Shown here: positions 2,925-7,138 of the stretch, one piece after another
Layout: each line of letters starts with the position of its first letter
Position numbering within the stretch: the stretch's first letter is position 1
From: Anaerolineales bacterium
GTDB taxonomy: Bacteria > Chloroflexota > Anaerolineae > Anaerolineales > UBA11579
DNA: 38,943 bases
Assembly: GCA_016935415.1 (NCBI GenBank)
Contig: JAFGRA010000420.1
Coordinates: forward strand, 1-38,943
Reading direction: 5' to 3'
Program-made: the position numbers and the translations under genes
The notes under the pieces: generated by a model
Seen by the model: only the letters and a program-made list of their open reading frames with translations
Told to the model about the DNA's origin: nothing
Databases searched by the model: none

Positions 2925-3836
2925 TTATAACTGTGCCAGCCCTTCGTCGACGGATTTTTCACCATTTTCGAGTTGCTTGAGCAAGTCGATGCGGTTCGGG
3001 CGCGGCACTACCTTCAAATACGGTTCCACGGCGTGCTGGTTTTCCGGCGTAACCAACTGGCAATTACCCGATACAGTCTTCATGATAACCTCCGCGCCAC
3101 CTCCACCAATCTCCACATTCCAGTGCCGCTTGGAGGTATGCAAGGACGTGGCCGGGAGTGCGGTCAAGAAACGCCCGCTGACGGATTTGCCACTGACCGA
3201 ACAGCGAGTTCCAGCCGGTACACGCAGCGTTATTTTACCTGACACGGTGGTGAGCACATACGGCCCAGCACCAATCGGCGTGCCCGCCTCAATATTTCCA
3301 CTGACATTCTTCACTGCCAACTCGGGAAAATCGCCGTCCGGCAACTGGATCACACCGGATACATTGTCGATATCGACCGGCCCGGAGATGCGTTCACCCA
3401 GGATGCGACCGCTGACGGATTTCAAGTAAACGTCACCACTCAAGTCCCGAGCAGTCAAGGAACCACTGACGGTCTTTAGCTTGAAGTTCCCCTCCAGAGA
3501 TTGCACATCCAGCGAACTGCTGACACATTTCGCATTGATCGACACACTGCGGGGCGTCTCGATCACAAAATGCACCTTGCAGGGCTTGGCGAAAAGCAGT
3601 GGAACCAGATAGGGTTTATCGTAGCGCGCTTCGGCAATCACGCCGCCGTCATCAGCCTGCGAAATATTGACCAGAGTCAGTTCGGGGGCACCGCTCAAAT
3701 TATCCCGAACAGCATGGACTTTGATCTTGTCATCCTCCCCCGGCTTGATCTCAACACTGCCGCGCACGTTATGCACGGTCAGCCTTGCAGGCGCATCGAC
3801 AACAAATACCTGCTCGAAAACTTCTTGCTCTGACAT
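2925..3836 (-). CDS. DUF4097 beta-repeat protein with C-terminal SHOCT-like module
   Basis: About 303 residues. Most of the protein is a DUF4097 right-handed beta repeat, visible as recurring VSG/LSG turns (for example LKTVSGSLTARDLSGDVYL), with no signal peptide or membrane segment. The last 24 residues (NRIDLLKQLENGEKSVDEGL) are a degenerate copy of the short helical module found in the upstream genes. DUF4097 proteins such as LiaX and YvlB take part in envelope-stress responses in Firmicutes; the role here is inferred. Two ATGs are two codons apart. The second, at 3836, is preferred because AAAGGA lies about seven bases before it but only one base from the first. Last gene of the module operon. 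Confidence 0.85.
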   Translation of the reverse strand: MSEQEVFEQVFVVDAPARLTVHNVRGSVEIKPGEDDKIKVHAVRDNLSGAPELTLVNISQADDGGVIAEARYDKPYLVPLLFAKPCKVHFVIETPRSVSINAKCVSSSLDVQSLEGNFKLKTVSGSLTARDLSGDVYLKSVSGRILGERISGPVDIDNVSGVIQLPDGDFPELAVKNVSGNIEAGTPIGAGPYVLTTVSGKITLRVPAGTRCSVSGKSVSGRFLTALPATSLHTSKRHWNVEIGGGGAEVIMKTVSGNCQLVTPENQHAVEPYLKVVPRPNRIDLLKQLENGEKSVDEGLAQL

Positions 3837-3847
3837 AGCCATATCCT

Positions 3848-4216
3848 TTATTCAATAAAGATTTCAACGTGCTCGCCGTCTTCTTCGTCAATCACATCCA
3901 CGATCTTGCCGGTCACACCGGCCGAGATCGCGTCGGAGAGGTCTTCAATGCCCATCTCCGGGACGAAGTTCGAGGCGATATTCATCCCCGCACCCACCAA
4001 ACCCAACGGCAGGTTTACGCTGACCTTGGTCTTACCGGTCACCATATCCGTGACGCGCACGCGCATATAGCGCGCTTCCGTCTGGCGGCTGATCGGACGC
4101 TGGCGGCGGCCACCTTCGGTGAGTGCGGCCAGCAGTTTGGCACCATCCTCGGCAGTGATTTTCCCATCCTGGATCATCTGGAGGATTTTCAATCTTTCTT
4201 CACTGGTTGCCATCAT
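3848..4216 (-). CDS. Small LiaX/YvlB-type protein (N-terminal SHOCT-like module)
   Basis: 122 residues. Residues 4-35 form the helical hairpin module (ERLKILQMIQDGKITAEDGA) known from the N-termini of YvlB and LiaX. The remaining roughly 80 residues form a domain shared with the gene just upstream: a RVRV strand, a hydrophobic VSVNLPLGL segment and the terminal DGEHVEIFIE, against DGEHVEVFIG in the paralogue. It lacks that paralogue's two membrane helices, so it looks like a soluble version. An AGGAG lies seven bases before the first of two adjacent ATGs. The 132-base gap upstream contains an inverted repeat, so expression may differ from the first genes of the operon. Confidence 0.85.
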   Translation of the reverse strand: MMATSEERLKILQMIQDGKITAEDGAKLLAALTEGGRRQRPISRQTEARYMRVRVTDMVTGKTKVSVNLPLGLVGAGMNIASNFVPEMGIEDLSDAISAGVTGKIVDVIDEEDGEHVEIFIE

Positions 4217-4239
4217 TGTTATGCTCCTTGTATCTAGGT

Positions 4240-4289
4240 AACTGACCGTCTGTTTTTAGAATACTTCCAAAGGTCATGAACGGTCAGTT
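4240..4289 (-). repeat. Inverted repeat in the 132-base gap inside the operon
   Basis: AACTGACCGT at 4240-4249 and its exact reverse complement ACGGTCAGTT at 4280-4289 are separated by 30 bases. The repeat ends 24 bases before the ATG of the 122-residue gene. It could be an operator for a dimeric regulator or a leader hairpin. The loop is long and no T-run follows it, so it is not a standard terminator. Confidence 0.55.
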
Positions 4290-4348
4290 CCTCACTAAAT
4301 TACGTAATAATACCTGCGGTTTTTTCATCTTATAGCAAACGTTTTTTA

Positions 4349-5110
4349 TCATCCAATAAATACTTCAACGTGCTCGCCGTCATCATCGTCGTCGACCTCG
4401 ATGTAGATCGGCTGTTTACTGGCGGCATACAGATCGATGGCGGTGATAATTTCATCCACACTGGTATTGTCCAGGCCGGAGATATTGCCACCAAATGTCC
4501 GCAAGGCCCAGGCAGAAAAGCGCAGCGGGATCGGAAAACTAACGGCCACATTTTCAGGGCCGTCGCCGGATTGTTTGACGCGCACGTGCAGCCAGGGAGC
4601 CGTACGCGAAGCCCAGGCCAGGGCGATCACCGTAATTCCAAGGATCAGTGGCAGCCAGGAAAAATAGAACCAGAAGCCAAAGTTATTTTTCTGCAAGAGG
4701 CTGTTCATCCACAGACCGGACAAGACGGTGATTCCCACGCCGATCCACAACGGGATCATCCACCATTGCTGCCATTTCTCGATTTTCTCCGGTTCAGCAG
4801 CGGTAAATCGATCCGGGCCAGGCCCTGAAATCACTTCAACCTTAGCAGATTCCGCGGTTGGGTCGGCGGTGCCGTCCTCCGCCGGGGCTGCCGCCTGTGC
4901 GGCTTCACCATTTTGCAGCAGATCGGCACCTTCTTCGGGACTGATTTCACCGGCGTCGATCATTTCCAGGATGTTCATCGGAGTCAGTGCTTCTTCTTCG
5001 GGGGCAACTGCTGCTTCAGCTTCTACTTCCATGAGCAGTTTGGCACCTTCTTCCGGGGTGATCTCGCCGTTCTCAATTCTTTCCAGGATACGTAAACGTT
5101 CGTTCGTCAT
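4349..5110 (-). CDS. Membrane protein with two tandem SHOCT-like modules
   Basis: 253 residues. Two copies of the helical module lie at about 2-30 (ERLRILERIENGEITPEEGA) and 43-69 (NILEMIDAGEISPEEGADLL). An Ala/Glu-rich linker follows, then two membrane helices (about 138-157 and 167-187). The C-terminal domain, ending DDDDDGEHVEVFIG, is paralogous to that of the 122-residue protein. The modules probably face the cytoplasm. It is the only member of the operon with obvious membrane helices, so it is the natural membrane anchor if the modules bind one another. It lies 24 bases downstream of the 454-residue DUF4097 gene. Function is unknown; an envelope-stress role is inferred from YvlB/LiaX. 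Confidence 0.85.
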   Translation of the reverse strand: MTNERLRILERIENGEITPEEGAKLLMEVEAEAAVAPEEEALTPMNILEMIDAGEISPEEGADLLQNGEAAQAAAPAEDGTADPTAESAKVEVISGPGPDRFTAAEPEKIEKWQQWWMIPLWIGVGITVLSGLWMNSLLQKNNFGFWFYFSWLPLILGITVIALAWASRTAPWLHVRVKQSGDGPENVAVSFPIPLRFSAWALRTFGGNISGLDNTSVDEIITAIDLYAASKQPIYIEVDDDDDGEHVEVFIG

Positions 5111-5134
5111 TGTCGGTACTCCATAATCCTACAC

Positions 5135-6499
5135 TTACTCCAAAGGCTCTTCACTGTCCATTGGCGGCTCAGGCGGTTCGGGTGCCATAGGCGGTTCTGG
5201 CGGTTCCGGTGGCTGCGGAAAATCTTCCGGGGGGCGGCCCTCAAGGGCCGCCAGCAAAGATTCAGCCTCATCAATAGAAATCTTCTTATCTTGCACCATT
5301 TGCAAGACCATCTGGCGTTCGGCATCCGTAACCGGATCGCTCTTGGGTTTCATTTTGTCGGTATCGAATGAGAACGAGAAATTACGCCCCTTCCCCTTTG
5401 TATGCCGCCGCGCCCGCTGGGCAGCCAAACGAGCCTGATGCTCGGCGCGCCGTTTGGTCGCTTCGATCTTGCGTTCGATTTGGCGCTGCACGTCGTAGAC
5501 ACGGCGTTCGGCATTGCGGGCGGCGGCCTCGGTACTGAATGTTGTAGTATTAAAATGTTCGGTCAATTCGTTGAGCTGCTCGTTCAGGGCTTCCATTTGT
5601 TCTTCTAATTGTTCGGAAACCTGTACGCTGATCTCTTCGGCCAGGTTGGCAATATCTTCGCCGAAATCAAAATCGAAGTCGAAGTCATCATCTTCGGCCT
5701 TGTCCATTGCCTTGAAACGAATGTCACCGCTCGCCTGTAAACTCAATCGGGCATCCGCGTTACCCAACGCAAACTCAAAACTACCGCCCTGGACGATCTT
5801 ACTCATTTCCGGGGTTTGGATATCGATATTCCCACGCGCCTGGAATTCGGCTTGAAGGTCGCTGGCCGCCGACACCCGGCAGTCAATATTGCCTTTGGCT
5901 TCCATCTCATAGGTCGCGCCCGGCTCCGGCTCGATGCGCAGTTCAATATTACCGCGCGCCACAGCCCTGGCACTGTCGGCCACTTGGCGGGCTTTCAAAT
6001 TACCCTTGACTTCCTCCACGCTGAACTGGCCTTCGACATCCCGCACAGTCAGGTTGCCATTCACCCGGCTGATTGCCAGGTCTTCCTCAACCTGAGTGAT
6101 GGATGCGTTGCCGTTCACTTGCCCAATTTCAACCCCGCCTTCGACCTGTTTGGCGTTCAAATTACCGCGCACGGTCCCCACGGTGAAATGGCCGATGTTC
6201 TTTACGACCAAATTGCCGGTGACTTCGGTAAAGCTTACCTCACCTTCCACAGACTTGACGGTCGCATCGCTGCTCACTTTGCCAACGCTCAAATTGCTGC
6301 CGGTCGGGATGCGCATCAGCAAGCCCGACTTGCTGGAAATCTCAAAACTGTCACCCTCGGCCTGGGCAACAACCGCATCGTCAGCGTCGGCATCGATGCG
6401 GATCTCAGTTTGATCCCAGCCCCGAACGCGCAGCGGGCCACTCGACTGCTTCACAACGATTTCAGGGGTATACGAAGTTTGATATTGTAAGCGTTCCAT
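5135..6499 (-). CDS. Large DUF4097 protein with coiled coil and C-terminal module
   Basis: 454 residues. Residues 80-265 are DUF4097-type beta repeats with short phased units such as GNLVVKNIGHFTVGTVRGNL. An acidic alternating stretch follows (DDDFDFDFDFGED, about 270-282), then a long helical, probably coiled-coil region that becomes strongly basic (about 285-371). A SHOCT-like module lies at 392-421 (RQMVLQMVQDKKISIDEAES), and the tail is made of PPEP repeats (422-454). There is no signal peptide or membrane helix. Its ATG shares one base with the stop of the DUF2089 gene (TAATG), indicating translational coupling. The domain order is the reverse of YvlB/LiaX, where the module is N-terminal. 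Exact function is unknown. Confidence 0.87.
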   Translation of the reverse strand: MERLQYQTSYTPEIVVKQSSGPLRVRGWDQTEIRIDADADDAVVAQAEGDSFEISSKSGLLMRIPTGSNLSVGKVSSDATVKSVEGEVSFTEVTGNLVVKNIGHFTVGTVRGNLNAKQVEGGVEIGQVNGNASITQVEEDLAISRVNGNLTVRDVEGQFSVEEVKGNLKARQVADSARAVARGNIELRIEPEPGATYEMEAKGNIDCRVSAASDLQAEFQARGNIDIQTPEMSKIVQGGSFEFALGNADARLSLQASGDIRFKAMDKAEDDDFDFDFDFGEDIANLAEEISVQVSEQLEEQMEALNEQLNELTEHFNTTTFSTEAAARNAERRVYDVQRQIERKIEATKRRAEHQARLAAQRARRHTKGKGRNFSFSFDTDKMKPKSDPVTDAERQMVLQMVQDKKISIDEAESLLAALEGRPPEDFPQPPEPPEPPMAPEPPEPPMDSEEPLE

Positions 6500-6888
6500 T
6501 ATTCTTTTACCTCACTATCTTGCAAAAGGCGCATCGCTTCTTCGGAATCGATCTTGCCCTCATTCAGGTCACTCAGGATTTGACTGCGCTCTTCTTCCGT
6601 CAAGCCACGCGCATCCTCCTCACCGGGTTCGTAACCCAACGTGCGGATGAGTTCGTGCAGCCGGTTGCGGATCGTCGGGTAAGACAGTCCAAGTTCCGCT
6701 TCCATGCGTGTGATCTTGCCCTCATTGCGAATGAAAATCTCAGCGAACGCCAACTGCTCGGGAGAGAGTTGGGCGAACGGGCTGGCGATGAAGCGCCCCT
6801 GAATAAGGGTATCGCAGTCCCGGCATTGCAGATGGGTAACCAGCAGTTCCCCACCACAAATCGGGCACTCACTAAAAACCGGATGCAT
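6499..6888 (-). CDS. DUF2089 zinc-ribbon/HTH protein, likely regulator
   Basis: 129 residues. The N-terminus has a four-cysteine zinc ribbon (CPICGG at 8-13 and CRDC at 22-25). A helix-turn-helix-like middle follows (about 54-84, MEAELGLSYPTIRNRLHEL), and the C-terminus has another SHOCT-like module (ERSQILSDLNEGKIDSEEAM). This order matches the DUF2089 family, whose members are predicted DNA-binding proteins often found beside DUF4097 genes. It is the most plausible transcription regulator of this operon, perhaps acting on the promoter at 7111-7138. AAGGAGC lies upstream inside the end of the preceding small gene, three bases of spacer separate the two genes, and its stop overlaps the next start. 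Confidence 0.9.
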   Translation of the reverse strand: MHPVFSECPICGGELLVTHLQCRDCDTLIQGRFIASPFAQLSPEQLAFAEIFIRNEGKITRMEAELGLSYPTIRNRLHELIRTLGYEPGEEDARGLTEEERSQILSDLNEGKIDSEEAMRLLQDSEVKE

Positions 6889-6891
6889 AGC

Positions 6892-7083
6892 TTAGTTTGC
6901 TCCTTCTTGCAAATTAGCATTCTCCGTTTTGCTACTACCGGAAAACGGATTGGCCATTTTCTTAAAAATGGTCTGAAGCTGTCGCGGAACCAGCGATTGA
7001 GCCGTAAAGCTGGAACCTTTTTCTGGCGATTGCTTTTCGAGCTTCGGTTTTTGATCCTCGGGGCCAAAAATTCTAAAGTCCAC
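6892..7083 (-). CDS. Small 63-residue protein, GTG start, first gene of the operon
   Basis: I do not recognise this protein. It begins with MDFRIFGPEDQKPKLEK and is hydrophilic, rich in Lys, Gln, Ser and Asn, with no membrane helix or cysteine. Reasons to consider it real are an AAGGA eight bases before a GTG start, a near-consensus promoter 28 bases upstream, and a stop only three bases before the DUF2089 start. It lacks the helical module shared by the other five proteins. It could instead be a leader peptide that couples translation to the regulator gene. Confidence 0.6.
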   Translation of the reverse strand: MDFRIFGPEDQKPKLEKQSPEKGSSFTAQSLVPRQLQTIFKKMANPFSGSSKTENANLQEGAN

Positions 7084-7110: not shown

Positions 7111-7138
7111 ATTATAGACAAAAAGTTCAATATGTCAA
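7111..7138 (-). promoter_or_regulatory. Strong sigma-70-type promoter of the module operon
   Basis: On the minus strand a perfect TTGACA (7133-7138) and a perfect TATAAT (7111-7116) are separated by 16 bases. The predicted start of transcription falls about 20 bases before the GTG of the small first gene. It is the best promoter match in the window. Confidence 0.85.

Follow-up and report, generated by a model that had tools for sequence, protein, structure and literature searches.

The stretch of DNA analyzed here (the window; 38,943 nucleotides, from a Chloroflexota bacterium) contains six ORFs, all on the minus strand, at positions 7083-2925 behind one promoter. This promoter (7111..7138, minus strand), described as near-consensus in the initial annotation, turned out to be a perfect match to the sigma70-type consensus (TTGACA-16-TATAAT, 12/12). 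The intergenic gaps, in operon order, are 3, -1, 24, 132, and 5 nt. The first ORF (6892..7083) has a GTG start, encodes 63 residues, matches no Pfam model, and has no homolog among 27 relative loci. It may encode a lineage-specific leader protein.

The second gene (6499..6888) encodes a DUF2089 protein containing a zinc ribbon, an HTH, and a C-terminal SHOCT-like module, with three Pfam models above cut-off (PF09862, E 3e-21; PF22747, 1.2e-12; PF22746, 2e-6). Transcription factors of the DUF2089 family are widespread, and the literature searched yielded no functional test of the family. The third gene (5135..6499) encodes TR1, a Toastrack-like beta-repeat protein with a charged helical arm and a C-terminal SHOCT-like module. 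Its match to DUF4097 (E 1.1e-4, 22.0 bits) is narrowly under the cut-off of 22.9 bits when TR1 is scored alone and counts as above it when the neighbors are included, and DUF4097 was detected at E ≤ 0.01 in 5 of 19 TR1 members. TR2, encoded by the last gene (2925..3842), is a Toastrack (DUF4097) protein over the PF13349 cut-off (47.5 bits, E 1.9e-12), with a degenerate SHOCT-like module at its C-terminus. Between the two Toastrack genes lie those for MEM (4349..5110), which combines two N-terminal SHOCT-like modules, a hairpin of two transmembrane (TM) segments, and a C-terminal domain according to Pfam, TM prediction, and AlphaFold2, and for SML (3848..4216), which consists of an N-terminal SHOCT-like module and a C-terminal domain. 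The predicted topology of MEM is N-in/C-in, the TM hairpin having a mean of 2.75 and 4.5 K+R residues on its flanks versus 0.35 in its loop. No TM segment was predicted in TR1, TR2, or SML. Searches of PDB sequences gave no convincing match for DUF2089 or SML, and nothing at E ≤ 0.01 for TR2.

The initial annotation had proposed that one short homologous module is carried by the regulator, the two Toastrack proteins, the membrane protein, and the small protein. We confirm that one helical module of about 30 residues is common to these five neighboring proteins, in six copies; Pfam already lists it under its own name, SHOCT-like_DUF2089-C (PF22746). Matches above the gathering cut-off (27 bits) were obtained for DUF2089 (module 1, 6511..6594, 27.6 bits), TR1 (module 2, 5234..5320, 33.3 bits), MEM (51.0 bits over two stretches), and SML (module 5, 4112..4201, 43.1 bits, E 2.7e-11). 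The two stretches of MEM (modules 3 and 4, 5021..5104 and 4895..4978), the second of which scores 25.6 bits alone, bear out the proposed N-terminal duplication. In an HMM built by leaving out one group at a time, modules 1 to 5 scored 22.1, 37.5, 46.6, 41.2, and 49.7 bits, respectively, versus a top score of 14.0 bits for 3000 shuffles per group. These scores are slightly favorable because the module windows were excised by patterns; the Pfam searches of the window proteins and TR2 homologs are independent of that excision. Module 2 was matched in all of the 19 aligned TR1 members. The mean net charge of the module is negative in every group (-1.4 to -4.0).

A C-terminal module had been claimed for both DUF4097 proteins. 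The claim holds for TR1. In TR2, the module (module 6, 2928..2996), located by alignment with TR2 homologs, is degenerate and goes undetected when the window protein is taken alone: there is no PF22746 match in the Pfam search, and the leave-one-group-out score is 9.9 bits versus 12.7 for the best shuffle. The median score in TR2 homologs is 20.7 bits. PF22746 was found at E ≤ 0.5 in four of seven TR2 homologs (best E 0.0089), at the aligned C-terminal position, so that the proposed count, six copies over five proteins, is correct, with a degenerate copy in TR2. Among the seven homologs, that of locus L023 lacks the module and that of locus L025 ends at a contig edge.

MEM and SML have, from profile comparison, a second domain in common beyond the SHOCT-like module, a feature that is new here and had been overlooked in the initial annotation. 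Their C-terminal regions of about 80 residues (4352..4594 in MEM, 3851..4075 in SML) are homologous according to hhalign (probability 98.6, E 6.5e-16), and AlphaFold2 modeled both as strand-strand-helix-helix-strand-strand (ββααββ), with moderate confidence (pLDDT of 79.8 for MEM and 74.0 for SML). No Pfam model covers this domain. We claim no known fold for it since a Foldseek comparison of the two models with the PDB gave nothing at E ≤ 0.001.

The neighborhood is conserved in related genomes, as the initial annotation had required. A genome scan with SML returned 27 loci, nearly all labeled Chloroflexota or Anaerolineae, of which 15 contain contiguous DUF2089-TR1-MEM-SML genes; TR2 follows SML in 6 of the 27, and the remaining loci show insertions or missing parts. 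Thus, with module homology detected by profiles across the proteins and gene order conserved, the proposal survived both of the tests set to refute it. A second sample comprised 40 Anaerolineae loci spread over families, mostly one per family; 33 of these loci were testable, having 3.5 kb or more of upstream sequence. On the same strand as SML and at the same locus, we found DUF2089 in 30/33, Toastrack in 19/33, and MEM in 9/33. Toastrack and MEM were undetected in 14 and 24 of these 33 Anaerolineae loci, respectively, indicating that neither is essential. Full-length MEM is mostly limited to the order of the window (Anaerolineales), likewise a new observation. Among 150 Anaerolineae genomes, SML is present in 111 and DUF2089 in 114; counted by hand, 105 have both, 6 SML only, 9 DUF2089 only, and 30 neither (Fisher p 8e-18, a statistic that ignores shared ancestry). 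Adjacent DUF2089 and SML genes were also found on plasmids of Niallia, Paraclostridium, and Embleya (Bacillota, Actinomycetota), the Paraclostridium plasmid carrying in addition a lone C-terminal domain after the pair. These plasmid matches all come from one collection, and the range outside Chloroflexota is therefore only sampled. The conserved core is DUF2089 plus SML, with Toastrack and MEM variable, a result that is new here and had also escaped the initial annotation.

Other arrangements of DUF2089 were observed. In genome G000, the gene precedes one whose product combines an N-terminal SHOCT-like module with GIHKVRPSYVREFKELG-like repeats (L019, contig C327, 5616-7606), and it directly follows a PilZ-domain gene at another locus (L020, contig C108, 6759-7576). 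On a plasmid of Legionella adelaidensis (L092, 4995-6072), DUF2089 adjoins a membrane protein (weak Yip1) with an N-terminus weakly like the SHOCT-like module (10.3 bits).

The strong promoter is a recurrent feature, which is also new here. Promoters scoring at least 11/12 lie upstream of DUF2089 homologs at 35 of 59 loci versus 13 of 352 other long ORFs of the same loci, and no dinucleotide shuffle reached this score. The p-value of this enrichment (3e-24) is only indicative because ORF starts were set mechanically in both sets and the loci are related. The near-consensus promoter was not seen at the three plasmid loci (Niallia, Paraclostridium, and Embleya), where scores are 9-10. Within the promoter spacers, TTCAA/TTGAA occurs 13 times versus a mean of 2.4 and a maximum of 8 in within-spacer shuffles. 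Over whole segments, the candidate operator motif TTCAAT/ATTGAA occurs 22 times, inside the shuffle range (maximum of 24), and no operator is therefore claimed. The letter before TTGACA, next to the -35 box, is A or C, a reading made after the promoters had been picked by score.

The annotation's statement that no system with this layout had been described does not stand. A Toastrack context of four genes, including a DUF2089 gene whose product is divided into ZnR-HTH-SHOCT-like parts, was described by Ravi et al. (2024; PMC11237479), who propose sub-membrane or membrane-stress signaling for Toastrack/DUF2089 contexts. As in that context, the Toastrack genes of the window share an operon with a DUF2089 gene of the ZnR-HTH-SHOCT-like type; relative to the text of that paper, the window differs in having five module-bearing proteins with six copies, tandem modules in MEM, and the ββααββ domain in MEM and SML. 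The window thus looks like a lineage-specific, expanded member of this kind. The envelope-stress role suggested in the annotation agrees in kind with this independent proposal; the homotypic network also suggested there is hypothetical. No further paper combining these features was found in the literature searched.

The Toastrack domain links the window proteins to LiaX (LiaFSR-LiaXYZ, enterococci), which acts with LiaFSR (PMC10269926), and to YvlB (Bacillus subtilis), for which two-hybrid tests show binding to Psp proteins (PMC9239133). TR2 matched the LiaX (NF038025) and LiaG models (E 1.9e-8 and 3.8e-9) far under their cut-offs (33.5 of 350 and 36.2 of 285 bits), and the MEM N-terminus matched the LiaX model at E 0.57 only. 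Unlike Lia systems, the operon has no LiaF or two-component genes. Canonical SHOCT (PF09851) is, like the window module, short and two-helix; it is mostly C-terminal (PMC3581485), whereas the window modules occur at either protein end and in tandem. The source genome, 95.23% complete, has no PF04012 (PspA) match, and PspC is found in three other places. A second TR1-MEM-SML copy, on contig C311, is truncated by the contig end and has an MFS gene after SML. Near the cluster at Anaerolineae loci L022-L088, we noted a GNAT acetyltransferase family at 15 loci, MFS families at 12 and 5, and a phage-holin-4_2-like family at 7, counts that stand without a background rate.

We propose, with a probability of roughly 0.45, that the operon is a PspA-free envelope-stress signaling cluster representing an expanded DUF2089/Toastrack context. 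The domains, the module homology, the conserved pairing, and the strong promoter are established; we infer the interaction, the stress signal, and the autoregulation with its sign. MEM would form a hairpin in the inner membrane with both ends in the cytoplasm, where TR1, TR2, and SML are also predicted to reside. The SHOCT-like hairpins and the ββααββ domain of MEM and SML may keep the proteins together beneath the membrane, and DUF2089 would be recruited to the assembly via its own C-terminal hairpin. Membrane disturbance would alter the assembly, so that DUF2089 is freed or held, and DUF2089 would in turn regulate the strong promoter that drives it, autorepression being the simplest mode; a strong promoter is no proof of repression. 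SML would be the near-constant partner of DUF2089, and Toastrack and MEM the lineage-specific sensing side. Counted in favor are the module homology of five proteins, the DUF2089-SML pairing, the charge pattern of MEM, the enriched promoter, and the LiaX and YvlB precedents; counted against are the negative self-association of canonical SHOCT, the sub-threshold DUF4097 score of TR1, the dispensable Toastrack and MEM, the MFS or GNAT genes close to the cluster at several loci, and the plasmid promoters scoring 9-10. A more specific version is doubtful: a modular sub-membrane switch built on one short helical hairpin that recurs in DUF2089, SML, the membrane anchor, and both beta-repeat proteins, with competing contacts gating the access of DUF2089 to its near-consensus promoter and the operon encoding neither a kinase nor PspA nor a sigma factor.

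Alternatively, the modules may not bind one another. Each would then separately tether the protein that carries it, either to the membrane's inner face or to a third partner common to all. Ravi et al. propose anchoring of the SHOCT-like module to the inner membrane leaflet (PMC11237479), and the one published self-association test, which concerned canonical SHOCT rather than the window module, was negative (PMC3581485). The module sits N-terminally in some and C-terminally in other, widely dissimilar proteins, which points the same way, whereas MEM carries the module despite its own TM hairpin. Membrane-binding helices are typically basic; the acidic charge of the module in all groups weakly disfavors anchoring, although a negative charge by itself is compatible with lipid binding. 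We regard this alternative as somewhat unlikely. Less probable still is a cluster acting chiefly as a regulator of detoxification or drug efflux, with the zinc ribbon of DUF2089 sensing a compound or metal and controlling transport and modification genes, Toastrack being secondary. The MFS and GNAT genes near several loci fit such a role too, as does the MFS gene after SML in the genome's second cluster, but the window operon has neither gene and the family counts have no background rate. DUF2089 genes also occur, along with ABC transporters, in gene clusters for leaderless bacteriocins (PMC7332713, PMC10707071). The conserved DUF2089-SML pair, the unmodeled common domain, and the enriched promoter make the published genomic prediction testable in concrete terms: does the SML hairpin bind the DUF2089 hairpin, and is the promoter thereby controlled?

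The gap between MEM and SML (4216-4350) contains a palindromic element, AACTGACCGT...ACGGTCAGTT. Read backwards, the pattern has no occurrence in the genome. Similarly spaced pairs were found elsewhere in the genome, with exact arms on contig C97, two mismatches on C152 and C233, and three on C45; the element is possibly a small mobile repeat.
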